Shown: piece after piece, positions 31,801 to 46,477 of the stretch
Numbering within the stretch: position 1 is the first letter of the stretch
Layout of the letters: each line of letters begins with the position of its first letter
Assembly: GCF_006539125.1 (NCBI RefSeq)
Contig: NZ_BJMK01000006.1
Location: 1-64,000 of the forward strand
Direction of reading: 5' to 3'
DNA: 64,000 bases
DNA from: Gluconobacter sphaericus NBRC 12467
GTDB lineage: Bacteria > Pseudomonadota > Alphaproteobacteria > Acetobacterales > Acetobacteraceae
Made by a program: the position numbers and the translations under genes
The notes under the pieces: generated by a model
Database searches by the model: none
What the model was told of the DNA's origin: nothing
What the model saw: the letters and a program-made list of their open reading frames with translations, nothing else

Positions 31801-33168
31801 ATGTCAGACGACTCATCGTCTTCTCAGGCTGCAAGACCCGGCGGTATCCGACGCGTCATGAGCAACCTGGGCGTCCTTCTGGGAGGACGCGCAGTCAATG
31901 CTCCGCTGAGCCTCATCCATATCTGGATGGCGACCCATCTTCTGGGAAGCTACGGCTTCGGACTCGTCGCGATGATGTATGCGTTCGCACGAACGATGGG
32001 CGACATAGTCGATTTCCAGTCTTGGCAGACCGTTCTGCATTACGGACTGCGCCCCCTAACGCAGGGTGACCGTCGCAGTTTCCAGAAAATCGTCTCCTTC
32101 AGTCTGCTGCTGGACAGTGTCGGCGGTCTACTGGGTTTTGGCGGAGGCGTCCTCATCAGCCTTCTGGCCATGAATTTTCTAGGCTGGCCGCCTGAGATCC
32201 ATACCATCGGCGTGGTCTACTGCGTCTCCATCCTTTTCATGGCATCCGCCACCGCAACGGGCCTGCTGCGAGTTTTCGACCGATACGACCTGCTGGCCGT
32301 ACAGGGCACCGTGGCCACCATCGTCCGGGTGATCGGTACGGCCTCCATGGCTCTGGGCTGGGCGTCCGTGACGGCGCTTGCCAGTGTCTGGATCGCAGCG
32401 GAAGTGGCAGCCTGGGGCACGATTTTTTTTATGGCGGCCCGCGAGATGTATCGCCGGGATCTGGTTCGCGGCCTCTTTCATGAAATGCGCGGTATTTTAC
32501 CCGAGATCCTGAGCGGACAGTTTTTCCGTACCTATCCGGGTATCTGGCGTTTCGCGCTGAATACGAACCTCAATTCCACGCTCGCCCTCGCCTTTGGCCA
32601 TATCGGCACCCTCGTGGTCGGCGCCTTCGTCGGTCCGACGAGTGCCGGCTATTACCGGATCGCAAGCCAGATCGCTGCCGGGATCGCCAAACCTGCGACC
32701 CTGATCCAAACGACCGTCTATCCCGAAATGGCCCGGCTGTGGCGCGACAGGGCCATGAACCGGCTGTATCGCCTGACGGGCCAAATTGCCCTGATGGCTG
32801 GCGGAATCGGAACGGCCCTGCTCCTGCTGACGCTGTTTGCCGGACGGCCGCTTCTTCAACTTTATATCGGTCACAAGGGTGCGACAGCAGCTCTTCCCGT
32901 CACGCTGTGGCTGCTGGCCGCGGAAGTGGTCACCGTCTGGGGCCTGCCGCTTGAGCCGCTGCTGTTCACAACGAACCGCTCTGACGCCGCGATCGGAGCC
33001 CGTATTCTGGAATGTACCTTCTTTCTGCCGGCCCTGGTGATGATGGTTCGTCATTACGGACTGAGCGGCGTGGGGCCAGCGACATTATGTGGCGTCACCC
33101 TTCTGATCACGATCCAGCTTTTCTTCGTGATCCGCACAGCCCGTAGCCCACGGGGACTTGCGGCATGA
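31801..33168 (+). CDS. Wzx-type polysaccharide/lipid-linked flippase
   Basis: From ATG 31801 the 455-aa protein has about 12-14 hydrophobic helices, starting RRVMSNLGVLLGGRAVNAPL. The MOP-superfamily feel includes FVGPTSAGYYRIASQIAAG and TLIQTTVYPEMARLWR. It probably flips a lipid-linked sugar or a modified lipid across the inner membrane. It is the first gene of the sphingolipid-associated group and overlaps the next gene by ATGA. The substrate is inferred only from that context. O-antigen export is the alternative. Confidence 0.8.
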   Translation: MSDDSSSSQAARPGGIRRVMSNLGVLLGGRAVNAPLSLIHIWMATHLLGSYGFGLVAMMYAFARTMGDIVDFQSWQTVLHYGLRPLTQGDRRSFQKIVSFSLLLDSVGGLLGFGGGVLISLLAMNFLGWPPEIHTIGVVYCVSILFMASATATGLLRVFDRYDLLAVQGTVATIVRVIGTASMALGWASVTALASVWIAAEVAAWGTIFFMAAREMYRRDLVRGLFHEMRGILPEILSGQFFRTYPGIWRFALNTNLNSTLALAFGHIGTLVVGAFVGPTSAGYYRIASQIAAGIAKPATLIQTTVYPEMARLWRDRAMNRLYRLTGQIALMAGGIGTALLLLTLFAGRPLLQLYIGHKGATAALPVTLWLLAAEVVTVWGLPLEPLLFTTNRSDAAIGARILECTFFLPALVMMVRHYGLSGVGPATLCGVTLLITIQLFFVIRTARSPRGLAA

Positions 33169-34295
33169 AGGTGGCATTCCCTCTCATCGGCCAGCGACAC
33201 CAGACCCTCCACGCCCTGCCAATCGCGCTGGAAGTTTCCGCGCGCCATCCGGACGTTGCGGTCCATGTCTCGTGCCTGACCGTGAGCCATCTCGAGCTGG
33301 CACGCTCGCTGGCGACACTCTATCCGGAGGCCCGGGTGCAGTTCGACCTGCTCCCGATCTCCCCCAAGCTCCGTCGTCGGATCGAACTGCACGGGCTTCG
33401 GGTGATGGATCGCCTGATCGGGCTTTTCGCCTCCCGGCATTATTTCCGGACCTTCGATGCGATCATCGTGCCGGAAGCGACATCCCTGCAGCTCCGCCGC
33501 ATGGGCGTACGGCGACCGAAAATGATCTGGACGGGCCATGGCGCCGGTGACCGGGCGATCGGTTTTGCCCGGCATCTCGGAAAATTCGATTTTCTGCTGG
33601 TTCCCGGACGCAAGGTGGAACAGCGCATGCTCGAAAAGGGCATCATCCGCCCCGGCACCTATCATCGCGGCACCTATGCCAAGTTTGATCTCGTGCGGCG
33701 CATGGATGCGAAACGACCGAAACTCTTCAACAACAACCGGTCGACGATCCTGTATAATCCGCATTTCCTGCGCCGCCTGTCTTCATGGCCGGAAATGGGG
33801 CATCAGGTCCTGCAGTTCTTTGCCACGCAGGATCGCTATAACCTTGTTTTCGCACCTCATTTCCGTCTCTTCGACAATCACCGCGAAGAGGGGGAAGCCC
33901 TGAGACGCCAGTATGGGCATCTGCCGCACATGCTGATCGACCCGGGCAGCCACCGGAGCATCGACATGACCTATACGATGGGGGCAGACCTCTATCTGGG
34001 TGATGTCAGCAGCCAGGTGGCCGAGTTCATGATCCGCCCGCGCCCTTGTCTCTTTCTCAACGCCCACCATGTCAAATGGCATGGAAATCCGGATTACCAG
34101 TTCTGGACGCTAGGACCAGTGACTGAAAATATGTCGGATCTGGGCGACAAGATCGAGAATGCTTTCGAAACGCATCCTCGTTTTCTTGAGGCGCAGCGCC
34201 AATATGTATTAGAGACATTCGAAACACTGGGCGATGAGCCCACTGCTCCCGCTGCTGCGGATGCAATTGTCGATTTTCTGAAAAGGGCTGCCTGA
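33165..34295 (+). CDS. CDP-glycerol glycerophosphotransferase-like protein
   Basis: The 376-aa protein resembles the TagB/TagF fold (GT-B like): KMIWTGHGAGDRAIGF, a TILYNPHFLRRLSSWPEMG segment, FAPHFRLFDNH, and the C-terminal LYLGDVSSQVAEFMIRPRPC, the DxSS..E..  motif of glycerophosphotransferases. Such enzymes move a glycerol-phosphate (or similar alcohol phosphate) from a CDP donor to a lipid-linked acceptor. No teichoic acid is expected in this group, so transfer to a lipid headgroup is a reasonable inference. It overlaps the flippase gene by 4 nt and precedes the acyl-AMP ligase by 31 nt. Confidence 0.65.
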   Translation: MKVAFPLIGQRHQTLHALPIALEVSARHPDVAVHVSCLTVSHLELARSLATLYPEARVQFDLLPISPKLRRRIELHGLRVMDRLIGLFASRHYFRTFDAIIVPEATSLQLRRMGVRRPKMIWTGHGAGDRAIGFARHLGKFDFLLVPGRKVEQRMLEKGIIRPGTYHRGTYAKFDLVRRMDAKRPKLFNNNRSTILYNPHFLRRLSSWPEMGHQVLQFFATQDRYNLVFAPHFRLFDNHREEGEALRRQYGHLPHMLIDPGSHRSIDMTYTMGADLYLGDVSSQVAEFMIRPRPCLFLNAHHVKWHGNPDYQFWTLGPVTENMSDLGDKIENAFETHPRFLEAQRQYVLETFETLGDEPTAPAAADAIVDFLKRAA

Positions 34296-34326
34296 TGTCA
34301 GGTAACCAAACGGAGCTAGTCCAGGT

Positions 34327-36105
34327 TTGACCGAGGCCAACCAGAACCCAACCGCCAATCCCGTTCCGACGCCAAGCCGCTCTGGCCTGGAAAGACGCTA
34401 CGGAGATTTCCCCAGCTTTGCGGCCGCCCTTGATTACGCGGCCCAGGGTGAGAGCGGATTCAACATCTATTCCGGCCGGGGGCAGCTTCTCGAGGCATTG
34501 CCATACCGTCTGCTACGCGAGCAGGCCCGTTCCATGGCCTGCCGCCTGCTGGGTCTTGGTCTGGTCCCGGGCGATCGCGTTGCGATCGTGGCAGAAAGCG
34601 ATGGCGACTTCGCCCGGATTTTCTTTGGCTGCCAGTATGCAGGTCTGGTCCCGGCACCACTCCCCCTTCCCGTCGCATTCGGCGGAAAGGAAGGGTATGT
34701 GGGAACCCTGCGCGGCATGATCCAGGTCGCCGCCGCCCGTGCCGTTGTCGTGCCGGACGTGATCGGAAGCTGGACGACGGACATTGTTGAGGGTCTTGAT
34801 CTGGTCTTCGGCGGTTCGCCGGCCGATCTGTACCGTCACGCCGAAGCCCATGTCGAACTACCGGAAATCTCCCCGACAGCCCTGTCCTATCTTCAGTTCT
34901 CCTCGGGCAGCACACGCTTTCCGATGGGCGTTTCGGTCACGCAGGCAGCTGGCATGGCCAATGCGCGTGCTATCGCCCGGGATGGTCTTCACGTCCATCC
35001 GGCAGAAGATCCGCGCGATGACCGCTGCGTCTCCTGGCTGCCGCTCTATCACGACATGGGACTGGTCGGTTTCTTCCTGACCCCTCTGACATGTCAGCTT
35101 TCCGTTGACCTGCTGCCCACCCGCGAATTCGCGCGTCGTCCCCATGTCTGGCTCGACCTGATTTCCCGCAATCGCGGCACGATCGCTTACAGCCCGTCCT
35201 TCGGTTACGAACTCTGCTCACGCAGGAACGGTCAGGCCGATCTGGACCTGTCATGCTGGCGCGTTGCAGGCATTGGCGGCGACATGATCCGCCATCACAT
35301 CCTAGAAGGTTTTGCAGAGCGTTTCGCGTCCAACGGTTTCCGGGCCAGCGCCTTTGTTGCAAGCTATGGCATGGCGGAAGCGACCCTCGCCATCAGCTTT
35401 GCCCCGCTCGACACTGGCATCCAGACCGACACGATCGATCTGCGTCGCCTTGAGCAGGATGGGATTGCCGAGCCTTCCAACGATCCGTCCCACCCGCTAC
35501 GGACCTTCGTTCTGTGCGGCGAAGCCCTTCCAGACCATCAGATCGAGGTCCGCGATGCAGCAGGTCATGATCTGGCGGACCGGCAGGTCGGCACAGTTTA
35601 TGTGCGCGGCCCGAGTCTGATGTGCGGCTATTTCCGCCGCCCTGACGAGACCGGAGATGTCCTTGATGCTGATGGCTGGCTGAACACGGGCGATCTTGGT
35701 TATCATCTCAACGGCCAGATCGTCGTCACCGGACGCGCCAAGGATCTCATCATCATCAATGGCCGCAATATCTGGCCGCAGGATCTGGAATGGTCTGCCG
35801 AAAGTGAGATCCCTACCCTGCGTTCGCGTGACGTGGCAGTGTTCTCCGTGGATGGCGAAGAAGGCGAGAAAATCGTAGCACTCGTCCAGTGCCGCGCGAC
35901 CGAGGATGAGAGCCGCAACCAGCTCCGCGATGAGGTCACAAGCCTGTTCCGCCGCCAGCATGGCGTGGATGTCGACGTCATTCTTGTGCCGCCCCGCACA
36001 CTTCCACAGACCTCTTCAGGTAAACTGACCCGTGCGAAGGCCAAGACCATGCTGCTCTCCGGTCAGTTCGAGCAGCAACCCGAAACAACGTCTTCGGTCG
36101 CCTGA
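34327..36105 (+). CDS. Fatty acyl-AMP ligase (acyl-ACP synthetase type)
   Basis: The 592-aa adenylating enzyme starts at TTG 34327. No ATG or GTG lies nearby in frame, and the next in-frame ATG is about 70 codons in. The phosphate loop reads SSGSTRFPMGV (residues 192-202), the fatty acyl-AMP ligase form without the Lys of acyl-CoA synthetases. WLPLYHDMGLVGFFLTPL and TGRAKDLIIINGRNIWPQDL follow. It should activate a fatty acid and load it on the ACP encoded next. With the ACP and serine palmitoyltransferase downstream it matches the Caulobacter sphingolipid set acyl-ACP synthetase/ACP/Spt. Confidence 0.87.
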   Translation: MTEANQNPTANPVPTPSRSGLERRYGDFPSFAAALDYAAQGESGFNIYSGRGQLLEALPYRLLREQARSMACRLLGLGLVPGDRVAIVAESDGDFARIFFGCQYAGLVPAPLPLPVAFGGKEGYVGTLRGMIQVAAARAVVVPDVIGSWTTDIVEGLDLVFGGSPADLYRHAEAHVELPEISPTALSYLQFSSGSTRFPMGVSVTQAAGMANARAIARDGLHVHPAEDPRDDRCVSWLPLYHDMGLVGFFLTPLTCQLSVDLLPTREFARRPHVWLDLISRNRGTIAYSPSFGYELCSRRNGQADLDLSCWRVAGIGGDMIRHHILEGFAERFASNGFRASAFVASYGMAEATLAISFAPLDTGIQTDTIDLRRLEQDGIAEPSNDPSHPLRTFVLCGEALPDHQIEVRDAAGHDLADRQVGTVYVRGPSLMCGYFRRPDETGDVLDADGWLNTGDLGYHLNGQIVVTGRAKDLIIINGRNIWPQDLEWSAESEIPTLRSRDVAVFSVDGEEGEKIVALVQCRATEDESRNQLRDEVTSLFRRQHGVDVDVILVPPRTLPQTSSGKLTRAKAKTMLLSGQFEQQPETTSSVA

Positions 36106-36235
36106 TACTCCACCGGCCCTGCCTGCCTGAACGCCTGAAAAGGCGAAGGGGTGGCGAACGGGGTCGGTTTGGAGCATAAGGCTTGCTCAAGATTGCACAG
36201 ACCCAAGCGTACACAGACATCGAGAGTTGAAGTCC

Positions 36236-36490
36236 ATGACTGACAGCGTCGCCGGTATTTCCGGAATGATCATTGAGAAACTGCTTGCCAACCCGAAAGT
36301 TCCCCGGGACATCGATGGTAACAGCAAGATTGTCGAAGACCTGGCCTTTGACAGTCTGGCCGTCATGAACTTCGTCATGGAAATCGAAGACGAACTCGAC
36401 GTCTCCGTCCCGCTCGACAAACTGGCCGATATTCGCACCATCAACGACCTTGCCGCCTGCCTGCACACGCTGAAGGCAGCCCACGCGTGA
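36236..36490 (+). CDS. Dedicated acyl carrier protein of the sphingolipid cluster
   Basis: ATG 36236 gives 84 aa with the phosphopantetheine site LAFDSLAVMNFV (Ser40) and the four-helix ACP pattern. It differs from the housekeeping AcpP at 51.4 kb (which has [10 protein letters not shown]). It lies between the acyl-AMP ligase and serine palmitoyltransferase, and its TGA overlaps the GTG start of the latter (GTGA). The obvious role is to present the acyl chain to serine palmitoyltransferase, as the dedicated ACP does in Caulobacter and Sphingomonas. Confidence 0.88.
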   Translation: MTDSVAGISGMIIEKLLANPKVPRDIDGNSKIVEDLAFDSLAVMNFVMEIEDELDVSVPLDKLADIRTINDLAACLHTLKAAHA

Positions 36491-37680
36491 CGGATATTTT
36501 CGCCAAGCACCAGGGGCTGCGCGAGGCCTATGAAGGCCTTACAACTGCCTCCCCGCGTAATCCGTTCGAGGTCGTGATCGAGCGTCCGATCTCCGCAAGC
36601 GTCGGGATCATCGAAGGGCGTGAGACGCTGCTCTTCGGGACCAACAACTATCTTGGTCTCAGCCAGTCGAAGAAGGCCATCGAAGCAGCCGTAGAAACGG
36701 CCGAGACGATGGGCGTCGGCACGACGGGCTCCCGCATTGCAAACGGCACCTTCGGTCTACACCGAAAGCTGGAGGCAAAACTCGCAGAGTTCTTCCGCCG
36801 CAAGCACTGCATGGTGTTCTCGACCGGATATCAGGCCAATCTGGGCACGATTTCGGCTCTGGTGAACAAGGACGACATCCTGCTGCTCGATGCGGACAGC
36901 CATGCCAGCATCTATGACGGCGCCAAACTGTCCGGAGCGCAGGTCATCCGCTTCCGGCACAATGATCCGGTCGATCTGGAAAAGCGTCTGGCCCGCCTGA
37001 AGGACCATACGGGCGCCAAGCTCATCATCGCCGAGGGCATCTACTCCATGACGGGCAATGTCGCCCCGCTGGACAAGTTCGTCGACATCAAGACGCGCCA
37101 TGGTGCGTATCTGATGGCTGATGAAGCCCATTCTTTCGGTGTTCTGGGTGCGCATGGTCGCGGTGTTGCGGAAATGCAGGGCTGCGAGGACGGGATCGAC
37201 TTCGTGGTCGGGACCTTCTCCAAGTCTCTCGGAACCGTGGGCGGATACTGCGTCACGGACCATGACGGCGTGGACCTGATGCGCCTGTGCTCGCGTCCCT
37301 ACATGTTCACGGCATCCCTGCCCCCCGAAATCATCGCAGCCACCATGGCCGCGCTTGAAGACATGCAGGCCCGCCCGGAACTACGGACAAAGCTTCAGGA
37401 AAACGCAGCCCGTCTGCATGCTGGCCTCCAGAAGGTCGGCCTGAAAACGGGCGAGCATGTCTCCCCGGTCGTCGCCGTGACGCTGGAAACCGTGGATCAG
37501 GCCGTAGGATTCTGGAACGCGCTGCTGGAAAACGGGGTCTATGTTAACCTCTCGCTTCCGCCGGCCACGCCTGACAACCGGCCGCTGCTGCGCTGCTCGG
37601 TCATGGCGGCCCATTCTCCCGAGGAAATTGACCGCGCCGTCGCCGTCTTCGGCGAAGTTGCCAAGCATTTCGGGCTGTAA
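36487..37680 (+). CDS. spt: Serine palmitoyltransferase
   Basis: This 397-aa alpha-oxoamine synthase starts at GTG 36487 and condenses serine with an acyl thioester to 3-ketosphinganine, the first step of sphingolipid synthesis. Motifs: LFGTNNYLGLSQ, GTTGSRIANGTFGLHRKLE, the PLP-binding DEAHSFGVLGAHGRGVAE, and the Schiff-base Lys in GTFSKSLGTVGGY (near residue 245). The class also contains KBL and BioF. The adjacent ligase/ACP pair, the SRIANGTFGLH block and the lipid kinase next door favour Spt. A terminator follows directly. Confidence 0.87.
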   Translation: MTDIFAKHQGLREAYEGLTTASPRNPFEVVIERPISASVGIIEGRETLLFGTNNYLGLSQSKKAIEAAVETAETMGVGTTGSRIANGTFGLHRKLEAKLAEFFRRKHCMVFSTGYQANLGTISALVNKDDILLLDADSHASIYDGAKLSGAQVIRFRHNDPVDLEKRLARLKDHTGAKLIIAEGIYSMTGNVAPLDKFVDIKTRHGAYLMADEAHSFGVLGAHGRGVAEMQGCEDGIDFVVGTFSKSLGTVGGYCVTDHDGVDLMRLCSRPYMFTASLPPEIIAATMAALEDMQARPELRTKLQENAARLHAGLQKVGLKTGEHVSPVVAVTLETVDQAVGFWNALLENGVYVNLSLPPATPDNRPLLRCSVMAAHSPEEIDRAVAVFGEVAKHFGL

Positions 37681-37684
37681 TCCA

Positions 37685-37720
37685 TAAAAAGGGGTGATCT
37701 ATCGGATCCCCCCTTTTTTA
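37685..37720. terminator. Bidirectional rho-independent terminator after spt
   Basis: AAAAAGGGGTGATC and GATCCCCCCTTTTTT pair around a 5-nt loop (TATCG). A-run on one side and T-run on the other serve the convergent spt and Tam41-like genes. Confidence 0.85.
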
Positions 37721-37721
37721 T

Positions 37722-38660
37722 TCAGACTTTCGGACGCTTCAGAAGCTTCCGGGCCCGCCACAAAAGCAATGGCAGCATCACAAGCGGATGCCGGCTCTCA
37801 AATGGCGACAACTTCATGTCAAAGCCCGTATGGCGCTGGATCTTCCAGGCCAGATAGGGTGCGCCGTTTTCAAATGTGAAAGCGGCTTTCAGCAGTCTGG
37901 CCACATTGCGTGGTCGTCCGGATGCCTGAATCAGTGCCCAGCGACGTGCCGCTTTCCGGCGCAACTCCTCGTGGATAACGGGTTCAAGCCTGTCGCCATG
38001 AGCCGAGAACTGAAGGTGCGCTCGCGCCCACCCCAACGTTAGCAGGGTAGCGTAACGCGCCTCCTGCCCTTCCAGAATGCTGTTGCCCCTACCCTTCTTC
38101 TCAACCCGGAGTTCGGACGCATAGGTATGGGCAAAAAGGGCCTGCCAGAACTCCTGCGTCGTCATGGACACATCACCCAGCAAAGCCGCCCAGCACGCCG
38201 CCGTCGCCACACAACCTGCGATCAGCGACAGAATGGCATCCGCGCTTTGTGGATCCCGCACCCAGACCAACCGTACCGGCTGACAGAACCGTGCCCAGAT
38301 CGTCGTATCGAGCGCGCCGAGCCCCGTTCGGACTTCGAACTGCGCCCGTGACAACACCGCAATCTTTGCTCTCAGAGCCCGGCCGTCATATCGGAATTCG
38401 GAATAACGGACATTGGGCGGCAGGACGAGATTTCCGGTCCGGGCCACCAATCCACCCGCAAAACCCGTAGTATTTTCGGTTATGATGTAGAAGTCGAGAA
38501 TACCGTCTGGATCTGCTTTGCGCAGAAGCGAGCCATAAAACAGTACACCCAGCGGAAGGACGGGGCAGGCACGGGCCAGCGCATCGGCAAAGGCAACCAC
38601 ACCCGGATCGACCGGTGTCGTCAATTCACTGATCAGACGCTGTTCAAGGACGTCAGGCAT
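37722..38660 (-). CDS. Tam41-like nucleotidyltransferase (possible CDP-lipid synthase)
   Basis: ATG 38660, which overlaps the upstream lipid-kinase gene by 8 nt, gives 312 aa. Residues 41-60 read FYGSLLRKADPDGILDFYII: a GS motif followed by acidic residues, as in Pol-beta type nucleotidyltransferases and especially the mitochondrial CDP-diacylglycerol synthase Tam41. A second Tam41-like block is RYDGRALRAKIAVLSRAQFE (90-109). The C-terminus is basic and hydrophobic (PLLLWRARKLLKRP), suited to membrane contact. My reading is that it makes a CDP-activated lipid from the phosphorylated product of the coupled kinase. No experiment on this family in bacteria is known to me. Confidence 0.6.
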   Translation of the reverse strand: MPDVLEQRLISELTTPVDPGVVAFADALARACPVLPLGVLFYGSLLRKADPDGILDFYIITENTTGFAGGLVARTGNLVLPPNVRYSEFRYDGRALRAKIAVLSRAQFEVRTGLGALDTTIWARFCQPVRLVWVRDPQSADAILSLIAGCVATAACWAALLGDVSMTTQEFWQALFAHTYASELRVEKKGRGNSILEGQEARYATLLTLGWARAHLQFSAHGDRLEPVIHEELRRKAARRWALIQASGRPRNVARLLKAAFTFENGAPYLAWKIQRHTGFDMKLSPFESRHPLVMLPLLLWRARKLLKRPKV

Positions 38661-39612
38661 GCAGGAACCGGAAGCGGGACGCACGTTCCAGACGCAACAC
38701 GCCGTCCGGCGCCGCGCTGAAAACCTCACCATCGAGCACGAAATCACTTTCCGTAACCAGCGTCATGTCGTCCGTCCGTCCGCTGACGTAATCCTGGTGA
38801 CGACGCAGCCAGCGCGGTGCGCGTCCACACAGAAGGGCCGCTGTTGCCCGGAGCAGACTGTCCGGCCAGGCACTTACGTCCAGATAACGCAGTCCTTCAA
38901 CATTTGGCTCGGCATCCCAAAATGGCCAGATCCCACGCGACAGGTGCGACAGCCCTGTTGTCAGGAACATGAAGCTCTGCCCGTCATAGACATGACCGCC
39001 GGTCTCAATCCGAAGCGGATCGCCCCGTAGCCATTCCTCGCGGCTTTTGCGGAACATGAGGCTAACGAATGTCGAGAGCAGGGTGATTCCGACCGCAAGA
39101 TCATGGGGGGCAAAACGCAGAACGGTCGGCGAGTGGGCAATGCGGACGGCACGCGCATACCCCGCGCAGCCACCGAACAGGCCAAGCACTGGCATCCGGT
39201 CGGTTCCGGGCCAGGACAGGCGGATGGGCGTCCGCACGCTGGAACGCAGATCACCCTGCCGCAGACGCTGGATCGCCTCCATCCCGCGCAGACCGAAACC
39301 AACATCCCCCGCAATCAGATTCGTATTGCCAGACGCCAGGACCACGATATCCGGAAGCCTGTCCGCAGGATAAGCGCGTGCGATGGCGGTCAGGGCCGTG
39401 CTGACCGTCCCATCACCACCATCGATAAGAATAGTGTCGATCCCACGCTCATAAAGCTGACGAACATGTTCGGTTGTTCCCTCCCGAGTATCAGAAGGCA
39501 CGAAATCCTTCCCCAGAAGGGCCTGGGCCTCGACAGCAAAACTGGAACCGTTCCGGCGGTTTTTCCGGCTACGGGCATTATGGATCAAGGCAATGCGCAC
39601 TAGGTGATGCAA
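38653..39612 (-). CDS. Diacylglycerol/ceramide-kinase-type lipid kinase
   Basis: The protein of about 319 aa starts at TTG 39612 or, equally plausibly, GTG 39600 (giving MRIALIHNARSRKNRR). It has the DAGK catalytic motif IDGGDGTVSTAL (GGDGT at 65-69), VLASGNTNLIAGD and the C-terminal SDFVLDGEVF of the YegS/DgkB/ceramide kinase fold. Caulobacter encodes a ceramide kinase of this superfamily (CpgB) beside spt. Here the gene also sits beside spt, so phosphorylation of ceramide (or of diacylglycerol) is inferred. It overlaps the Tam41-like gene, so the two steps are likely coupled. Confidence 0.75.
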   Translation of the reverse strand: MHHLVRIALIHNARSRKNRRNGSSFAVEAQALLGKDFVPSDTREGTTEHVRQLYERGIDTILIDGGDGTVSTALTAIARAYPADRLPDIVVLASGNTNLIAGDVGFGLRGMEAIQRLRQGDLRSSVRTPIRLSWPGTDRMPVLGLFGGCAGYARAVRIAHSPTVLRFAPHDLAVGITLLSTFVSLMFRKSREEWLRGDPLRIETGGHVYDGQSFMFLTTGLSHLSRGIWPFWDAEPNVEGLRYLDVSAWPDSLLRATAALLCGRAPRWLRRHQDYVSGRTDDMTLVTESDFVLDGEVFSAAPDGVLRLERASRFRFLHA

Positions 39613-39739
39613 TCTTCGTATGGCGTTCGGCTATGCGGGCGGGTCTAGCACGGCTATGATGGAACTGCCAGAACACGGCATCCCAGCGCGTCTGGATGCC
39701 ATGTTCTGACATGGATACTGACAAGGCCCTTTTCTGATC

Positions 39740-40693
39740 ATGACCTCTGACCTGCCCGCAGACCCCATCTCGTCGCGGCAAACGTCCCCTGTCATCACGC
39801 CTACGCCCGCCGTCTCCCCCACTGTTACGCTAGCCCATATTTCGGACCCGCACCTGCCCCCGCCCCCGGTCCACTGGCGTGAAGCGCTCAACAAGCGCGC
39901 CCTGAGCCTTCTGTCATGGAAGAAACATCGTCGGTACGTCCATCTGGAACAAACCTGCTCCGCCCTGCTGAAGGATATCGAACGCTCGGACGTGGACACC
40001 GTCCTCATCAGCGGGGATCTGACCAATTTCGGAACGCCCGACGAGTTTGCCTCAGCCGCACGTTGGCTCGATGCCCTGCCCGCTCAGGCACTCGTGATTC
40101 CCGGCAATCATGACTGCATGGTCCGCCAGCCGGCCTCGGCCGGTCTGCACCAATGGGAACGCTGGTCGGCCCGGCAGTATCCGTATGTCCGCATCCAGAA
40201 CGGGGTTGCGATCGTCGGCGTCAATTCCGGCATTCCGACTGCGCCGTTCATGGCTTACGGGCGCGTCGGACACCGGCAGCGTGAGCGACTTGAGGCGCTA
40301 CTGGAAGAGCTTGGTCGGGAAGGGCTGTGCCGGGTCGTGATGATCCATCACCCTCCCCGGCGGGGGCTCGTGCCCTGGCGGAAATCCCTGCTCGATCACC
40401 GCGAGGTCGCCGCCGTTTTCAGGCGGGCCGGAGCGGAAATCGTGTTGCATGGACATTCCCATGACGCAACGCTGACCCATATTGCCGGAACGGACATTCC
40501 GCTGCTCGGGGTGGCGTCCGCCTCGCTGACGGATGAACGCCCGCACCGTCAGGCCTGCTGGAATCGCCTGAACATCCACCCATATAGGAAGGGATGGACA
40601 ATCACTCTGGCACGTCACCGGCCCGATGGCTCCGTCAGTGAACGGGCGTCATGGAGCCGCCCAGTGAACCATACGGGAAGGACAGAGGCGTGA
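39740..40693 (+). CDS. Calcineurin-like metallophosphoesterase
   Basis: The 317-aa protein shows all blocks of the dinuclear-metal phosphoesterases: HISDPHLPPP (Asp36, His38), ISGDLTNFG, VIPGNHDCM, VMIHHPPRRG and EIVLHGHSHDATL. It begins a six-gene operon (39.7-45.6 kb) joined by 4-nt overlaps: its TGA overlaps the GTG of the LptF-like gene. Members include cyclic-nucleotide phosphodiesterases and the lipid A pyrophosphatase LpxH. Given the lipid genes around it, a lipid- or CDP-lipid-directed activity is possible but not shown. Confidence 0.82.
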   Translation: MTSDLPADPISSRQTSPVITPTPAVSPTVTLAHISDPHLPPPPVHWREALNKRALSLLSWKKHRRYVHLEQTCSALLKDIERSDVDTVLISGDLTNFGTPDEFASAARWLDALPAQALVIPGNHDCMVRQPASAGLHQWERWSARQYPYVRIQNGVAIVGVNSGIPTAPFMAYGRVGHRQRERLEALLEELGREGLCRVVMIHHPPRRGLVPWRKSLLDHREVAAVFRRAGAEIVLHGHSHDATLTHIAGTDIPLLGVASASLTDERPHRQACWNRLNIHPYRKGWTITLARHRPDGSVSERASWSRPVNHTGRTEA

Positions 40694-41844
40694 AACAGCG
40701 GGCCCATATTCTGGACCAGTATCTGCTGACACAGATGGCACCGCCCTTTGCAATCGCTCTTTTAGCGATGCTGGTCGCGCTGTTGCTGGAACGGCTGCTG
40801 TCACTCTTCGATTATCTGGCTTCGGCAGGAAGTTCGCTCGGGACATGCATCGCCCTCCTGACGGATCTTCTGCCTCATTATTTTGGTATCGCACTGCCCG
40901 CGGCGCTGTGTATCGCGGTGTTCCTCACCATCCGGGGCATGAGCGACAACAACGAGATCGACGCGCTTCAGGCCGGCCGAGTTTCGCTGATGCGAATCAG
41001 TCGCCCTTTCATGATCGTGGGGCTGCTTCTCGGGGCAGCCAGCGTGTTCCTGTACGGCTATATCCAGCCCGTCGCCCGCTATAATTATCGTGCAGGCTTC
41101 TATTTTGCCGAACATACCGGCTGGGCCCCTCATCTTCAGGCAGGAATGTTCGCATCCACATCCAGCAAGGCCGTCATGACGGCTGATAGCGTTAGCCATG
41201 CCGGCACGCGCCTCCGACGGGTCTTCATCCGGGAAGTGAATGCCAATGGCGTGGCCCACATCATCACGGCCCGGACCGGCGCGTTGACCATTTCGGAAAA
41301 GACCCGCAGTACGCGCCTCGACCTGTGGAACGGGGAAATCGTGGATGATCCGTTCCAGGCCACCAAACCCCACAAACCAACCGTGACACATTTCGAACAT
41401 GTCGTCCGGGTTGTCGACCGGCCCGACAAGGAAACTTCCTTCCGCTCTCGTGGGGCCGACGAGCGCGAACTGACCCTGTTCGAACTGGCACATGACCTGC
41501 GTTATGGCCTGCCCGGCATCGAATACCGCACCCTTCGGGCCGAAATGGACTTCCGCATGGCCCGCGCCATCGCCATTCCGTTCATTCCGCCGCTTGCTGT
41601 CGCGTTGGCCATCGGCGCCCGGCGAAGAAAATCCGTCTGGGGGCTGATTGCGGTGGCCGTGATCCTTATCTCCTTCGATCAAGTGCTCATGTTCGGCCAC
41701 AGCCTCGCCTCGACCGGGCGCCTCCCGATCTGGCTAGCGATCTGGGTGCCAGAACTCCTGTTCTGCATAGGATGTCTGGCAGCCCTGCTACGCCGGTCCC
41801 GTGGATCTTGGAGACGGCGCAAGCTCGCAAAGGCGGCGGCATGA
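40690..41844 (+). CDS. LptF/YjgP-family permease
   Basis: GTG 40690 (GTGA overlap with the upstream stop) gives 384 aa. The LptF/G architecture is present: N-terminal LDQYLLTQMAPPFAIALLAM, three helices, a periplasmic beta-jellyroll region (about 130-280), then three C-terminal helices (IPFIPPLAVALAIGARRRKS). The family forms the membrane part of the LptBFG complex that extracts lipopolysaccharide. An LptG-like gene follows directly. The pair may be the normal Lpt proteins or a second set for a sphingolipid: the surrounding genes suggest the question but do not settle it. Confidence 0.85.
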   Translation: MKQRAHILDQYLLTQMAPPFAIALLAMLVALLLERLLSLFDYLASAGSSLGTCIALLTDLLPHYFGIALPAALCIAVFLTIRGMSDNNEIDALQAGRVSLMRISRPFMIVGLLLGAASVFLYGYIQPVARYNYRAGFYFAEHTGWAPHLQAGMFASTSSKAVMTADSVSHAGTRLRRVFIREVNANGVAHIITARTGALTISEKTRSTRLDLWNGEIVDDPFQATKPHKPTVTHFEHVVRVVDRPDKETSFRSRGADERELTLFELAHDLRYGLPGIEYRTLRAEMDFRMARAIAIPFIPPLAVALAIGARRRKSVWGLIAVAVILISFDQVLMFGHSLASTGRLPIWLAIWVPELLFCIGCLAALLRRSRGSWRRRKLAKAAA

Positions 41845-42950
41845 GCAGCTCCACACCCAGCATGCCCCGCCATGTCCTGATCAAAGCACTCAACCGTGCC
41901 CTCCTGGGGCGCTTTTTGCTATGCGGGGCCGTCCTCGTCTCGTTACTGGAAATCCTGGCGCTCCTTGAAAAGACGACGCCGATCCTGAACCGCCATCTCG
42001 GCTTTCGCGGCATTCTGACCTTCGCCTTGCTGCACCTGCCTGCCCTAAGCATCGACATCCTGCCGCTCGCTTTCATGGTGGGCGCGCTGTTTCTGCTCAC
42101 ACAGATGACCCTGTCGAGCGAAATCTCGGCCCTGCGAGCAGCCGGACTTTCAACCCCGGCATTGTACCGACTTCTCCTGCCCGCAGTGCTGATCGCAGGG
42201 ATCGGAGGCACCTGCGCCCAGTACTGGCTGGTCCCGGCCTGCGAGAACGCCCTCACGACATGGTGGAACCGCACGGATCCGCTTGCGGGGCAGGACGGGC
42301 AGCCAGAAGACAATATCTTATGGTTTCGCGCGGGTCCCATGCTGGTCCGGATTGGGCAGATTGCCCAGGGCGGCACATTCCTGCGAGACGTGACGATCTA
42401 TCACCGAGACAATACCGGGCTGCTGACAGGGACCGAACACACGAACGTTCTGACATACCGCAACGGACAGTGGCATCCCGATGGGGCGCAGGATCTTTCC
42501 CTGTCCGATGACAAGTCATACGTGAATATTACAAAGGGCGACAACACCTTCGTCATTCCGGCCACTCCCTCCGTCATCATGACGCTCTCACAGAACGGAG
42601 CCACTGTCACGCCGGCGCAGATCAGCGCCATTCTTCACAAGGGCGCACCTGCAAGTCTACCCCGGGCCACGTATCGTATGGCCCTCTTCAGCGGCATGAT
42701 TTTACCTGTCGAAATTGCAGTAATGCTTCTATTGACGCTCCCGGTGATCTATATCCCTCCCCGTGCAGGACTTCGAAATCCGCTGCCGGTGTATGTTCTG
42801 GCCGCTGGAATGGGTTTCGTCATCCTGCAGGGAATGATTTCCGCACTTGGAAACGCGGGGACGCTGCCAGCTCCGCTGGCCGTCAGCGTCGGACCGCTCC
42901 TGGGCACCCTTCTCGGGCTGACCTGGCTTTTGCGGATGGAGGAACGATGA
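41841..42950 (+). CDS. LptG/YjgQ-family permease
   Basis: ATG 41841 overlaps the LptF-like stop (ATGA). It encodes 369 aa with the same helix-jellyroll-helix layout: LLGRFLLCGAVLVSLLEILA, EISALRAAGLSTPALYRLLL (a coupling-helix region that contacts the ATPase), and C-terminal helices around LPVYVLAAGMGFVILQG. It should pair with the LptF-like protein and a shared LptB ATPase encoded elsewhere. Embedding of lptFG inside an operon with a hydroxylase, a nucleotidyltransferase and a glycosyltransferase is unusual: in most genomes the pair adjoins pepA or lptD. Confidence 0.85.
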   Translation: MSSSTPSMPRHVLIKALNRALLGRFLLCGAVLVSLLEILALLEKTTPILNRHLGFRGILTFALLHLPALSIDILPLAFMVGALFLLTQMTLSSEISALRAAGLSTPALYRLLLPAVLIAGIGGTCAQYWLVPACENALTTWWNRTDPLAGQDGQPEDNILWFRAGPMLVRIGQIAQGGTFLRDVTIYHRDNTGLLTGTEHTNVLTYRNGQWHPDGAQDLSLSDDKSYVNITKGDNTFVIPATPSVIMTLSQNGATVTPAQISAILHKGAPASLPRATYRMALFSGMILPVEIAVMLLLTLPVIYIPPRAGLRNPLPVYVLAAGMGFVILQGMISALGNAGTLPAPLAVSVGPLLGTLLGLTWLLRMEER

Positions 42951-43747
42951 GCAACTTCAAGGCGCCCTGGCGCAACATGTCCGCTATCAGGACGGGTCGC
43001 AGCTTCGATCTAGGAAAGATGAACCTCCAACAGCTGTGGTTCGCCTATCTGACCTATCCGACGATCCTGCTCTATTTCGCGCTGATCGTAGTATCCGCCT
43101 GGGCCGCCCTGCATTTTTCGACCGCGCTCTGGGCCACACTCATTCCCGTTCCCGTCGTGATCGTCGTCTATCCACTGGCCTGGTATGCGATACACCGCTT
43201 CATCCTTCACGGACGCTGGCTGTACCGCAACCACTGGACCGCTTCCCTGTGGAAACGCATTCATTTCGACCATCATCAGGATCCGCACCTTCTGGACGTG
43301 CTGTTTGGCTCCCCGCTGAATACGGTGCCGACCATGGCGATCATCACAATGCCGATCGGCGGACTGATCGCGGGATGGAGCGGTGCGTTCTGTGCCCTTT
43401 CGACAGCGTTAATCATGACCTGCATCTACGAATTCTTCCACTGCATCCAGCATCTGGCCTACAAGCCACGCTGGAAATGGGTGGCGGACATCAAGCAGCT
43501 TCACGTCCTGCACCATTTCCACGATGAGGACGGCAATTACGGCATCACGAATTATGTGCCCGACCGTCTATTCAGTAGTTTTTACCGCGAAGCCCGCGAC
43601 CGGCCCCGCAGCAAGCATGTCTTCAACCTCGGTTACGACGTCGAGGAAGCCCATCGTTATCCCTGGGTGATGGACCTGACAGGCTCTCCCCCGCGCGACC
43701 GTCCTGATGGTGCACGTCCGGCAGCAGACCGTAACCGCGCGACATGA
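42947..43747 (+). CDS. Fatty acid hydroxylase/sterol desaturase-superfamily membrane enzyme
   Basis: The 266-aa protein overlaps lptG by ATGA. Four membrane helices carry the histidine clusters of the di-iron FA_hydroxylase family: HRFILHGRWLYRNHW, HFDHHQDPH, FHCIQHLAY and LHVLHHFHDEDGNYG. Homologues hydroxylate ceramide acyl chains, sphinganine C4, or carotenoids. In this lipid operon hydroxylation of the sphingolipid (acetic acid bacteria are known for 2-hydroxy-acyl ceramides) is the best guess. The Pro/Arg-rich last ~20 residues look disordered. Confidence 0.83.
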   Translation: MSNFKAPWRNMSAIRTGRSFDLGKMNLQQLWFAYLTYPTILLYFALIVVSAWAALHFSTALWATLIPVPVVIVVYPLAWYAIHRFILHGRWLYRNHWTASLWKRIHFDHHQDPHLLDVLFGSPLNTVPTMAIITMPIGGLIAGWSGAFCALSTALIMTCIYEFFHCIQHLAYKPRWKWVADIKQLHVLHHFHDEDGNYGITNYVPDRLFSSFYREARDRPRSKHVFNLGYDVEEAHRYPWVMDLTGSPPRDRPDGARPAADRNRAT

Positions 43748-44499
43748 CGCTTCCAGTTCTGGTTCTCGCCGGGTCCAGAGACGGCGAGAACGATGTACTT
43801 GCTAAACTCGGTCAGGTTTCCCACAAGGCGCTGCTTCCCGTTGGCGGGCAGCCCATGTTGGCCCGCGTGCTCGATACGATTGCCCACACGCCCGGCCTTG
43901 GCCCCATCACGATCAGCATCGAAAATCCCGATTGCATCAGGGATCTCGCAGGTGATGCCACGATCCTTCGCTCTGCCCCCTCTCCCAGCGAGAGCGTGGC
44001 CGAAGCCATTGCCCGGATCGGCACGCCCTGTCTGGTGACGACAGCCGATCACGCCCTCCTGCGTCCGGAATGGATTCAGGACTTCCTCGCCAAAGCACAG
44101 GACTGCGACCTTGCTGCCGGTGTGGCTCTGCGTACGACAGTTGAGCGCGACGTGCCCGGCACGAAACGGACCTATATCCACCTGTCTGATATGAGCTTTT
44201 CCGGCTGCAACCTGTTTCTGATCGGCACACCGAAGGGGCGAAATGTCATCGAGCTGTGGAAGCGCCTCCAGCAGAACCGCAAACGGCCGCTGCGAATGGC
44301 CTTGACACTTGGGATCGGCACCCTGCTGCGGGCAGTGACCCGTACACTCGATTCCACAGCCCTGTATCGCCGCATTCAGGCGTTGACGGGCGCAAATGTG
44401 CGCCTGGTAACACTCTCGGACGGGCGCGCGGCCGTGGACGTGGACAAACCCTCAGACCTGACGCTGGCTGAAAAAATTCTGGCCCAGACGATCCCATGA
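43744..44499 (+). CDS. MobA-like/sugar- or alcohol-phosphate nucleotidyltransferase
   Basis: The 251-aa protein overlaps the hydroxylase gene by ATGA. The NTP-transferase fold is visible in LPVLVLAGSRDGEND, HKALLPVGGQPMLARVLDTI (the nucleotide loop plus Lys and the PxxGxPML motif) and CLVTTADHALLRPEWI (metal-binding Asp). A C-terminal DVDKPSDLTLAEKIL matches MobA-like and CTP:inositol/phosphocholine transferases. It probably makes an NDP- or CDP-activated headgroup used by the glycosyltransferase or glycerophosphotransferase of the cluster. The substrate is not determined. Confidence 0.75.
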   Translation: MTLPVLVLAGSRDGENDVLAKLGQVSHKALLPVGGQPMLARVLDTIAHTPGLGPITISIENPDCIRDLAGDATILRSAPSPSESVAEAIARIGTPCLVTTADHALLRPEWIQDFLAKAQDCDLAAGVALRTTVERDVPGTKRTYIHLSDMSFSGCNLFLIGTPKGRNVIELWKRLQQNRKRPLRMALTLGIGTLLRAVTRTLDSTALYRRIQALTGANVRLVTLSDGRAAVDVDKPSDLTLAEKILAQTIP

Positions 44500-45566
44500 A
44501 AATCGCCTACATCATCAATTCCCTCGAATGTGGCGGCGCACAGCTTCCCATTCCGGACATCGTATCCGTTCTGAAGGCCCGCGGCGGGGACGTTACCGTC
44601 TTCGCCCTGGCCCGCAAGGACGGCCTCGCCATCCCGCTGATCGAAGCCGCCGGCATCCCCGTGCGCGTCCGGGAGGGTACGACGCGGGACCATATCGCCG
44701 CCTATCGCTGGCTGCGGGACGAAATGGAGGCGTTTCAGCCAGACCTGATCTGGACGTCGCTGAGCCGCGCCACACTTCTGGGACAACTGGTTGCCCTGCG
44801 CCACAAGACCCCGACGGTTCACTGGCAGCATTGCGGACGGCTAAAGAAGGTCAATGCCTTCCTGCTGAGGCTGTGCCGCCCCTACACGACGCTCTGGGTC
44901 GCCGACTCCCAGTCCGTCATCACCTTTGCGGCGAAAGAACTGGGCCTCACCGACAATTTCGTCGCCTGGCCCATTTTCCGGGCCGATCCGGACGCCCCTG
45001 TGGCCATGCCGTGGAAAGACGGCGAGGTCGTGCGTGTCGGGTCACTGGGACGCCTGAACCCCGTCAAAGCGTATGATATTCTGTGCGAGGCCGTGTCTCT
45101 CCTGAAAGACCATCCGGACCTGCCGCTGTTCCGTTTTCAGATCGCAGGCGATGGCCCCGAACACGCAACACTTCAGGATCGCATCACGGCCGCTAACCTG
45201 CCGATCGACCTTCTGGGCTACGAGTCAAAGCCGTTTGATTTCCTGAAGACGCTGCATCTTTACGTCCAGTCGTCGCACTGGGAGGGCATGTGTGTCGCGG
45301 GGCATGAAGCCATGTCCTGTGGCCTTCCGGTCGTTTCCACCCCTGCGGGCGAACTGGCGTCGAGCATTCTCGACGGTGAAACCGGACGTATCGTGCCGTT
45401 CGACAATGCCCCTGCCCTTGCGGCAGCGCTGGCGGACCTGATCGACAGAGCAGCCGATCTTGCGGCGATGGGCGCCCGCTCCCGCAAACGGGTTCTGGAA
45501 CGCTTCGGGCCTGAAGCATTCATCAGGCATGGCAATGCTGTGCTGGATCGTATCCCCGGCTTCTGA
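44496..45566 (+). CDS. GT4-family glycosyltransferase
   Basis: The 356-aa GT-B enzyme overlaps the previous gene by ATGA and ends the six-gene operon. The N-terminal domain has IINSLECGGAQLPIPDIV. The donor domain has GSLGRLNPVKAYDILCEAV, FQIAGDGPEHATL and SHWEGMCVAGHEAMSCGLPV, the E-x7-E motif of GT4 retaining transferases. It likely adds a hexose to a lipid at the inner face of the membrane. The cluster makes a (phospho)ceramide acceptor plausible. Its 3' end lies 20 nt from the convergent GINT1-like gene. Confidence 0.85.
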   Translation: MKIAYIINSLECGGAQLPIPDIVSVLKARGGDVTVFALARKDGLAIPLIEAAGIPVRVREGTTRDHIAAYRWLRDEMEAFQPDLIWTSLSRATLLGQLVALRHKTPTVHWQHCGRLKKVNAFLLRLCRPYTTLWVADSQSVITFAAKELGLTDNFVAWPIFRADPDAPVAMPWKDGEVVRVGSLGRLNPVKAYDILCEAVSLLKDHPDLPLFRFQIAGDGPEHATLQDRITAANLPIDLLGYESKPFDFLKTLHLYVQSSHWEGMCVAGHEAMSCGLPVVSTPAGELASSILDGETGRIVPFDNAPALAAALADLIDRAADLAAMGARSRKRVLERFGPEAFIRHGNAVLDRIPGF

Positions 45567-45586
45567 GCACCTGGGATACGCGCTTC

Positions 45587-46477
45587 TCAGGCTCCGAATA
45601 TCCGACGTTTCAGGTTAAGCAGGTCCCGCCTGGGGCCAATCCCAATTTTCTTGGCATCAATCAGCGTCACCTGCCCGGCTGCGGACAGGGTGTGCATCCC
45701 ATCAGGATAGCGCTTCCGCAAAGACGCCGGGATAGCAATAGACAGGCCGGGGGTGATTTTCGGCAGCCCTCGCTCCAGCCCTTCGATTTCCAGCAGCCGA
45801 ATCCCGCGTCCATATGTTCCGCGACAATCCTGAGTAGGCAGGAAGATCTTTCCATCCACAAGAACCGGCGTGCCACCAGGACGTGCGCCGGCCCGGTCGT
45901 TCAGGAAAAGCCCAAGGTTTTTCCAAGGCCCCATCAGGGTATCGGCTACGGAAATGTTCAGAAGACTCTGCCGTTCGTCCTTGCTCCCTGCTGGCGTCCA
46001 GAACATCCACCAACGATTGGCATACTGGAATGGCGTGGCATCGATTGCGGCTTCGGGGAAATCGAACGCATCGACCCGCTCCCATGTACGCGGAAACGAT
46101 TTTGCCCGATAGAGCGAAAGACGCCCCGAAGCACTGGCTTCGGGCAGCATATAAACCTCGCCCTCATGTGCAAACACGAACGGGTAAGACAGATGCCAGG
46201 GCTCCCGCAAAACGGTTTCGCGAGACAGTAGACGGCCCGTTCCGTCATAGATCAGAACTTCGATCGTTCCCGTGGGACTGCGATAATCGAAGGCCTCGGC
46301 AAAAACGTGCAGCTTTCCGTCGCGCCAGAATCCGAACGGATCGGCCAGAAAGCAGTGATCCCCGATATCGGGCAGAGTCGTGATGGGAAAGCCGTTCAGA
46401 CTGGCAGCTTCGACCACCTCAGCCAGAGGCGCGTGAACGATGGCGCATCGCCAATGATCCGTTCGCAAAAATGGCAT
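45587..46477 (-). CDS. GINT1-type (glucosamine inositolphosphorylceramide transferase family) beta-propeller protein
   Basis: The 296-aa protein consists of a GH43-like five-bladed propeller: HCFLADPFGFWRDGKLHVFA, REPWHLSYPFVFAHEGEVYM followed by LPEASASG, then ATPFQYANRWWMFW and GGTPVLVDGKIFLPTQDC. This is the N-terminal domain family named after plant GINT1, the enzyme that glycosylates inositol phosphorylceramide. In bacteria such domains occur in many glycan clusters with unknown role. No transferase domain is attached here. Its convergence with the GT4 gene suggests a helper or glycosidase/transferase role on the same lipid. Confidence 0.65.
   Translation of the reverse strand: MPFLRTDHWRCAIVHAPLAEVVEAASLNGFPITTLPDIGDHCFLADPFGFWRDGKLHVFAEAFDYRSPTGTIEVLIYDGTGRLLSRETVLREPWHLSYPFVFAHEGEVYMLPEASASGRLSLYRAKSFPRTWERVDAFDFPEAAIDATPFQYANRWWMFWTPAGSKDERQSLLNISVADTLMGPWKNLGLFLNDRAGARPGGTPVLVDGKIFLPTQDCRGTYGRGIRLLEIEGLERGLPKITPGLSIAIPASLRKRYPDGMHTLSAAGQVTLIDAKKIGIGPRRDLLNLKRRIFGA

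Follow-up and report, generated by a model that had tools for sequence, protein, structure and literature searches.

A block of genes at positions 31798 to 44499 of a 64,000-nucleotide stretch of the Gluconobacter sphaericus NBRC 12467 genome (contig NZ_BJMK01000006.1, positions 1 to 64,000; hereafter the window), together with accessory genes reaching to 46477, is very probably the acetic-acid-bacterial version of the phosphosphingolipid locus of Caulobacter. Judging by its sequence, the block would make ceramide-based membrane lipids and probably export them. An earlier note on the window had taken the genes at 31801 to 46477 to serve the headgroup, hydroxylation, and export of a sphingolipid, and this reading, with export as its probable part, was upheld by their conservation beside the serine palmitoyltransferase gene, spt, in many acetic acid bacteria. 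The genome comprises 3.06 Mb in 97 contigs, the window lying on contig 6. Gene neighborhoods were compared with the surroundings of spt in 35 other spt-positive genomes of the family and with 40 named loci; the comparison with Caulobacter was by family, description, and position rather than by direct alignment with its proteins.

The genes for a specialised acyl-ACP (acyl carrier protein) synthetase (AasR, a fatty acyl-AMP ligase), a dedicated ACP (AcpR), and Spt are present together, as in the Caulobacter-type locus for ceramide phosphoglycerate (CPG) and CPG2; these and all further genes lie on the forward strand unless stated otherwise. AasR (34327 to 36105) scored 912 bits to NF006624 against a cut-off of 600, and AcpR (36227 to 36490) matched PF00550 (E 4e-11) and carries a DSL motif at residue 42. 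Spt (36487 to 37680), whose gene overlaps acpR, shares 98% identity with the G. oxydans NBRC 14819 protein and 99% with its G. potus equivalent. It passed the NCBIfam model SerpalmtaseBetaP (NF047599; 617 bits against 500) and failed SerpalmtaseAlphaP (455 against 670); since this Spt is alphaproteobacterial, the names of the two models seem not to follow taxonomy. A second Spt in the genome was rejected: of the two next-best paralogues, one was HemA-like and passed its cut-off with 600 bits, and the other, a partial sequence, was BioF-like and reached 408 of the 426 bits required.

Conservation of the block beside spt

Beyond spt, two genes on the reverse strand encode a Tam41-fold nucleotidyltransferase (37722 to 38660, with an in-frame ATG at 38660), a candidate CDP-ceramide synthase of CpgC-like type, and a lipid kinase (38653 to 39612), a candidate CpgB-like ceramide kinase. 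There follow genes for a calcineurin-like phosphoesterase (39740 to 40693), an LptF-like permease (40651 to 41844) and an LptG-like permease (41772 to 42950) that are candidates for LptF2 and LptG2, a membrane di-iron fatty acid hydroxylase (42947 to 43747), and a CofC/MobA-like nucleotidyltransferase (43744 to 44499), all of which were counted with aasR, acpR, and spt as core. An accessory GT4 glycosyltransferase gene (44496 to 45566) closes a run that begins at 39740, in which each gene overlaps its neighbor and which on this basis reads as a single operon. Two further accessory genes, for a MOP-superfamily flippase (31798 to 33168) and a TagF-like GT-B protein (33165 to 34295), precede aasR, and a loosely associated gene for a protein with a GINT1_N/GH43-like domain (45587 to 46477, reverse strand) ends the region. 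Family scans confirmed what the earlier note had assigned as flippase, AMP ligase, ACP, Spt, kinase, LptF/LptG-like proteins, hydroxylase, second nucleotidyltransferase (NTP_transf_3), and GT4; its gene list had left out the metallophosphoesterase.

Among 120 genomes of the family Acetobacteraceae, this one included, 36 were spt positive (Spt at E <= 1e-130) and 84 were spt negative, and three core genes were nearly confined to the former: the Tam41-like gene occurred in 30/36 spt-positive and 1/84 spt-negative genomes, the CofC-like gene in 29/36 and 1/84, and the hydroxylase gene in 34/36 and 1/84. The corresponding counts were 26/36 and 1/84 for the GINT1_N gene (above 300 bits, leaving out 10 spt-negative genomes with matches below 300 bits) and 18/36 and 1/84 for the TagF-like gene (above 340 bits, leaving out the spt-positive genomes G066 and G070, whose matches were all below 340 bits). 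Where a spt-positive genome had the gene, it lay within 16 kb of spt in 26 of 30 cases (Tam41-like), 25 of 29 (CofC-like), 30 of 34 (hydroxylase), 12 of 26 (GINT1_N, second copies omitted), and 15 of 18 (TagF-like). The core genes searched thus track spt, as expected of a sphingolipid locus rather than a lipopolysaccharide (LPS) locus. The earlier note had said that finding these genes without spt in most relatives would count against it; for the genes searched, the 120 genomes gave the opposite picture. In two small genomes, G029 and G116 (1.9 and 2.1 Mb), the block is pared down to aasR, acpR, spt, and the Tam41-like, kinase, hydroxylase, and CofC-like genes, with no lptFG there.

In the sole spt-negative exception, genome G056, the block recurs around another pyridoxal phosphate (PLP)-dependent synthase (276 bits to the Spt model), with a short-chain dehydrogenase/reductase (SDR) and a ceramide synthase (CerS) inside. 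Its block (L120, C41:1-20000, at 1.5 to 17.5 kb) holds the Tam41-like, kinase, lptFG, hydroxylase, and CofC-like genes and two TagF-like genes, and at its center the PLP synthase, which is BioF/SPT-like (340 bits to bioF, below cut-off), stands with the SDR and CerS. This is possibly a second kind of locus for a ceramide or ceramide-like lipid.

Several observations weigh against reading the block as one sphingolipid locus. The Fisher p-values for association with spt (<= 1.3e-10 for each of the five genes) overstate the case, because the genomes are related and share genes by descent. In G054 (of the same genus), G066, and G117 the half from the Tam41-like to the CofC-like gene lies away from spt, so the two halves of the block are separable; in G063 it also lies apart, with both pieces at contig ends that may join. 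The Tam41-like gene is absent from 6/36 spt-positive genomes, and G068, G100, and G098 have ceramide genes without it. The kinase, the permeases, the phosphoesterase, and GT4 are tied to spt by neighborhood alone. That the whole block travels together, which the earlier note had proposed to examine by synteny, therefore held in part: it is widely conserved by spt, but its halves can part and GT4 and the GINT1_N gene are loosely tied. In Gluconobacter cerevisiae, Acetobacter fallax, and A. oeni (L089, L095, L111), about 0.8 to 1.6 kb of extra DNA lies between the two halves, separating the Tam41-like gene from spt.

Ceramide synthase, candidate reductase, and the CpgA step

With the E. coli BL21(DE3) proteins for CerS (YghO) and the epimerase-type reductase CerR as queries, neither found a match in the window (E <= 1e-5). 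The earlier note had rightly placed both outside the window; in this lineage they are absent from the surroundings of spt as well and are either elsewhere or replaced. The genome search that it called for returned one CerS but no convincing epimerase-type CerR. The single CerS homologue (E <= 1e-10), at C4:37751-38875, is 33% identical to YghO and 47% identical to the CerS inside the G056 block, and the latter identity supports its assignment; by sequence, then, a CerS acyltransferase is present, off locus and diverged.

Adjoining this cerS and divergent from it is an SDR gene (C4, about 39066 to 39872; L125:9067-9873) whose product shares 54% identity with the SDR encoded beside cerS within the G056 block. 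The motifs TGxxxGxG and YxxxK were found in 15/15 aligned sequences, and a profile of the protein detected 30 of the 120 genomes at 328 to 427 bits, the next match scoring 212 bits. In all 30 genomes (SDR above 325 bits) the gene is adjacent and divergent to cerS, across gaps of 94 to 560 bases; 27 of the 30 are spt positive, and the other three, G056, G010, and G105, have a BioF-like synthase beside SDR and cerS. G010 (L145) and G105 (L150) show the PLP synthase, SDR, and CerS side by side, without a Caulobacter-type Spt, and have about 4 kb away an inositol-monophosphatase-like gene whose product is 35 to 36% identical to that of the window gene at 47108 to 47896. In many acetic acid bacteria the window gene, inositol monophosphatase/HisN-like, comes after the block; it may be a member of the headgroup pathway or a mere neighbor.

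The SDR and the E. coli-type CerS split the 36 spt-positive genomes 27:9 with no overlap. E. coli-type CerS scored 329 to 358 bits in the nine (the label ">330" takes in one at 329.6 bits) and at most 254 bits elsewhere. Eight of the nine have an epimerase-type CerR; the ninth, G021, carries beside aasR a diverged SDR (42%) that scores 187 bits to the SDR profile, and shows a weak 47-bit epimerase match 8 kb from spt. At 130 bits or more, epimerase-type CerR was found in the stretches around spt (in G098, around cerS) of 8/36 spt-positive genomes, and also in Dongia and three other named loci. The 26 other SDR-type genomes showed none at that level within the 8- to 20-kb spt stretches searched, and the named loci from Gluconobacter, Bombella, Saccharibacter, Acetobacter, and Komagataeibacter had none either. 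In the G. sphaericus genome, E. coli CerR gave only weak matches of 44, 39, and 32 bits, the third partial. The 44-bit protein (L130) was rejected as CerR: it occurs in 108/120 genomes and is missing from 11/36 spt-positive ones (E <= 1e-20); it is presumably NDUFA9-like. The 39-bit protein was likewise rejected, scoring 507 bits to the hopanoid family HpnA. On the Spt tree, which was built by a fast algorithm and shows long branches for E. coli and G021, reductase type changed at least three times, or twice without G021, which was labelled SDR from its diverged SDR beside aasR.

We therefore regard the SDR beside cerS, on sequence and position, as the candidate ketosphinganine reductase of this lineage. 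Among the matches listed in a search of its profile against the Protein Data Bank (PDB) for KDSR, all were other SDRs. Like BT_0972, the 3-ketosphinganine reductase of Bacteroides thetaiotaomicron, it belongs to the SDR family with GxxxGxG and YxxxK motifs; BT_0972 differs in coming from another phylum and in being unclustered with spt, and the likeness is to its published description rather than its sequence (PMC9278070). Against the candidate it must be said that the SDR sits outside the block, that the cut-offs for SDR (between 328 and 212 bits) and CerS (between 329 and 254 bits) were placed after the gaps had been seen, and that a table in PMC9386255 gives GOX1849, of epimerase type, as the reductase of G. 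oxydans 621H. We tentatively question the GOX1849 assignment in favor of the SDR beside cerS, a reading in conflict with that table.

CDP-alcohol transferases (PF01066) number only two in the genome. One is PssA-like, although its 94.5 bits fall short of the pssA cut-off (107), and the other is a 230-amino-acid frame that we take to be PgsA; neither was matched by the two Dongia CDP-alcohol transferases used as queries, and no CpgA-type transferase was found. In Dongia, G063, and G102 a CDP-alcohol transferase lies next to the kinase and would be the counterpart of CpgA, and the Spt tree appears to place G063 and G102 outside the acetic acid bacteria proper. As no CpgA-like transferase is among the genome's two, we do not expect CPG2 to be made through CpgA. 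The headgroup might be attached by the housekeeping transferases, using CDP-ceramide as substrate, or by the TagF-like enzyme where present; that no headgroup transferase was identified for the pathway tells against our reading of the locus, and a look through the open-licence literature found nothing on the sphingolipid headgroup of Gluconobacter.

These results bear on the alternative that Gluconobacter simply uses the Caulobacter pathway as published, with an epimerase-type CerR (GOX1849) and CPG/CPG2 as product. That the kinase and the CpgC-like and CC_1153-like genes are all present fits such a route, as does the listing of GOX1849 (epi) and GOX2417 (aca) for G. oxydans 621H in PMC9386255. 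The weakness of the CerR matches in the genome, the lack of epimerase-type CerR in it and in the spt stretches of the 26 SDR-type genomes, and the lack of a match of the Dongia CpgA-like protein to either of the two CDP-alcohol transferases all speak against it, and we consider it improbable.

Candidate lipid-modifying, headgroup, and export enzymes

The protein at 37722 to 38660 had no Pfam match, the best among 26 homologues being no better than E 0.03, and its profile retrieved no Tam41 among PDB sequences. Its AlphaFold2 model (pLDDT 82.8, from 19 aligned sequences) clearly has the Tam41 fold, as the earlier note had suggested: Foldseek gave E 3e-8 to Tam41 of a Firmicutes bacterium, and superposition on Tam41 7ecd gave Z 18.7 and an rmsd of 3.2 over 230 residues, with 12% identity. 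The next family, the aminoglycoside nucleotidyltransferases, reached Z 7. The substrate of the modelled enzyme is probably ceramide-1-phosphate. For the lipid kinase (DAGK_cat, E 5e-11), the best PDB matches of the profile were YegS and DgkB; it has GGDG at residue 65 and lacks CxxxCxxC, features also reported for CpgB (PMC10331486). By motifs and family it fits the CpgB type and is a candidate ceramide kinase.

The kinase and the Tam41-like enzyme might instead act on diacylglycerol to give CDP-diacylglycerol (CDP-DAG) rather than on ceramide derivatives. Solved Tam41 structures are indeed CDP-DAG synthases, and Caulobacter CpgB also phosphorylates diacylglycerol in vitro; deletion of cpgB in Caulobacter, however, left phosphatidic acid unchanged (both PMC10331486), and the Tam41-like gene occurs in step with spt rather than with phospholipid synthesis in general. 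We judge a diacylglycerol substrate to be quite improbable.

Of the remaining enzymes assigned to a ceramide pathway, the hydroxylase (PF04116) has three histidine clusters (HFDHH, HCIQH, and HVLHH), and its profile matched yeast Scs7 (4zr1), a ceramide fatty acid hydroxylase and its nearest solved relative, with E 5e-10; it is thus Scs7-like and a candidate for 2-hydroxylation of the N-acyl chain. The CofC-like protein (NTP_transf_3, E 2e-12), a candidate counterpart of CC_1153, matched the CofC model TIGR03552 with E 3e-4, far under the cut-off of that model. Searched with its profile against PDB sequences, it matched TTHA0179 and cytidylyltransferases, and no entry named CpgD. No CpgD was recognised in the block, to which this search was confined; the only MobA-like protein there is the one that scores weakly towards CofC.

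The glycerophosphotransferase-like gene at 33165, related to CDP-glycerol glycerophosphotransferases, stood up in part: its product fell below the Pfam cut-off for PF04464 (17.4 bits against 22.1), but 10/15 homologues matched that family at E <= 0.1 (best 1.4e-7). The AlphaFold2 model (pLDDT 79.5) has a GT-B fold, and because TagF (Z about 18) was level with UDP-GlcNAc 2-epimerases in Foldseek and VIA-align, the TagF identity is tentative. The GINT1-type protein does match GINT1_N (PF24793, E 3e-34), but in its N-terminal domain only; Glyco_hydro_43 was found in 10/11 homologues, a weak PDB match was to GH43 (E 3.5e-4), and no glycosyltransferase domain was found in the protein or its homologues at E <= 0.01. 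With no transferase domain, its resemblance to plant GINT1 counts for nothing, and a tie to plant glycosyl-inositolphosphoceramides was rejected, the common domain being GH43-like and the gene often unlinked to spt. Glycosylation by this protein is accordingly unsupported. Nor is a core role supported for GT4 (PF00534/PF13439): it was found (above 40% identity) in 32/59 loci holding both spt and the Tam41-like gene, and the Bombella, Saccharibacter, and Komagataeibacter xylinus blocks are without it.

The flippase (Polysacc_synt, PF01943, E 7e-11) is a candidate counterpart of Caulobacter CC_1166. In several acetic acid bacteria its gene adjoins that for the TagF-like protein, and a MOP-type gene lies near spt in E. 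coli BL21 also. The phosphoesterase (PF00149, E 2e-16), by domain and position a candidate counterpart of CC_1158, was present in 56/56 loci (L035 to L111) that showed an LptF-like gene, within 2.2 kb of it; in E. coli BL21 it was not seen beside lptFG. The LptF- and LptG-like proteins carry PF03739, as the earlier note had it, but remain under the NCBI equivalog cut-offs (174.6 bits against 230 for TIGR04407 and 168.4 against 240 for TIGR04408). By analogy, the flippase and the LptF/LptG-like pair may export the lipid. This argument presupposes a further, ordinary LptF/LptG pair in the genome and fails if that of the window is the only one, a point that counts against the export part of our reading.

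LptF/LptG-like, flippase, GT4, and TagF-like genes are common in envelope polysaccharide loci. On that ground, and because 4/30 spt-positive genomes with a Tam41-like gene have it more than 16 kb from spt or on a separate contig, the genes at 37.7 to 46.5 kb might be thought to serve LPS or capsule assembly and to stand beside spt by chance, which is very improbable given the near confinement of the Tam41-like, CofC-like, and hydroxylase genes to spt-positive genomes, the similar genes alongside spt in Dongia, and the retention of four of the genes at spt, with no lptFG there, in the small genomes G029 and G116.

Known sphingolipid loci and the proposed route

The published Caulobacter crescentus cluster, CC_1168 to CC_1152, has 17 genes, among them those for a flippase, LptF2/LptG2, a kinase, a CDP-DAG-synthase-like protein, a phosphoesterase, and nucleotidyltransferases; its authors suggested that CC_1161 activates ceramide-1-phosphate and proposed, without a test in that work, lipid export by the flippase and LptF2/LptG2 (PMC11324152). 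CpgD has been assigned elsewhere, with CpgC described as acting by an unidentified mechanism (PMC12275187). Like this ceramide/CPG2 locus (PMC11324152, PMC12275187), the Gluconobacter block has aasR, acpR, spt, kinase, CDP-DAG-synthase-like, phosphoesterase, LptF/LptG-like, flippase, and CofC-like genes in one region, and the Tam41 fold places the 37722 to 38660 protein with the CDP-DAG-synthase-type domain of CpgC, the latter compared by description. That fold is shared with the Tam41 CDP-DAG synthases (7ecd, 6ig2, and 6ig4), although at the low sequence identity given above. Unlike Caulobacter, the genome has no CpgA-like CDP-alcohol transferase, the cluster contains neither CerR nor CerS nor a recognised CpgD, and the Scs7-like hydroxylase is within the cluster, whereas the Caulobacter candidate, CC_0202, is unlinked (PMC11324152); the TagF-like, GT4, and GH43-like genes are additions.

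For G. oxydans 621H, GOX2058 to GOX2056 have been listed as aasR-acpR-spt, GOX1849 as epi, and GOX2417 as aca (PMC9386255). The present case agrees in genus, in these three genes, and in having CerS off locus; the relevant section of that account does not treat the downstream block and names an epimerase reductase instead of an SDR. With the 17-gene Caulobacter cluster (PMC11324152) and the G. oxydans aasR-acpR-spt genes already in print, and with fewer core enzymes in Gluconobacter than in Caulobacter, the earlier description of a larger, single-locus pathway than described is unsupported. E. coli BL21(DE3) (ECD_02850-02854 and lptG-lptF; about 2.99 to 3.00 Mb, L113) likewise has CerS, AasR, AcpR, Spt, and an LptF/LptG pair at spt, besides its ordinary lptFG, and differs in having an epimerase-type CerR and LptF/LptG proteins above the NCBI cut-offs, those of the window being below. 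These E. coli genes are relevant when this common expression strain hosts sphingolipid enzymes.

In the route that we propose, AasR would load a fatty acid onto AcpR, and Spt would condense acyl-AcpR with serine to 3-ketosphinganine, activities published for the Caulobacter homologues. The off-locus pair at C4 would then act, the SDR reducing and CerS N-acylating to dihydroceramide, a product that acetic acid bacteria have been reported to make (PMC11722302). The Scs7-like enzyme may hydroxylate the amide-linked acyl chain, the CpgB-like kinase would give ceramide-1-phosphate, and the Tam41-fold enzyme, its fold known from a model, would use CTP to form CDP-ceramide. A headgroup would be attached by an enzyme other than a CpgA homologue, the CofC-like enzyme perhaps providing a phospho-acid in activated form, with elaboration of the headgroup by the TagF-like and GT4 enzymes in species that have them; the MOP flippase and the LptF/LptG-like pair, again by analogy, could carry the lipid to the outer membrane. 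Families, one fold, conservation, and co-occurrence are established, and from these we infer every reaction.

More tentatively, and at somewhat less than even chances, we suggest a mosaic ceramide pathway. In it, a Caulobacter-type Spt, ACP, and ligase would be joined to an SDR-CerS pair replacing the epimerase-type CerR, reduction would take place in the cytoplasm ahead of N-acylation, the order followed by eukaryotes and Bacteroides, and the paths to headgroups attached without CpgA would diverge from CDP-ceramide, the product of the Tam41-fold enzyme. That the SDR-CerS pair sits beside a different, BioF-like PLP synthase in G056, G010, and G105 belongs to this picture. In the open-licence literature consulted we met neither an SDR-CerS pair in acetic acid bacteria nor a Tam41 fold for the CpgC-like protein, and a small sample of it did not contain the terms CDP-ceramide and Tam41.

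The window thus holds a well-supported sphingolipid locus, ordinary in most of its genes and notable for a likely replacement of the reductase, a lost CpgA step, and the Tam41 fold of its CpgC-like protein. The role of CpgC, the second phosphosphingolipid enzyme, becomes testable, as does the identity of the sphingoid-base reductase of acetic acid bacteria, organisms that served as a dihydroceramide source in a human feeding trial (PMC11722302). That loci otherwise alike have two different reductases is also relevant to the debate over whether reduction or N-acylation comes first (PMC11324152).

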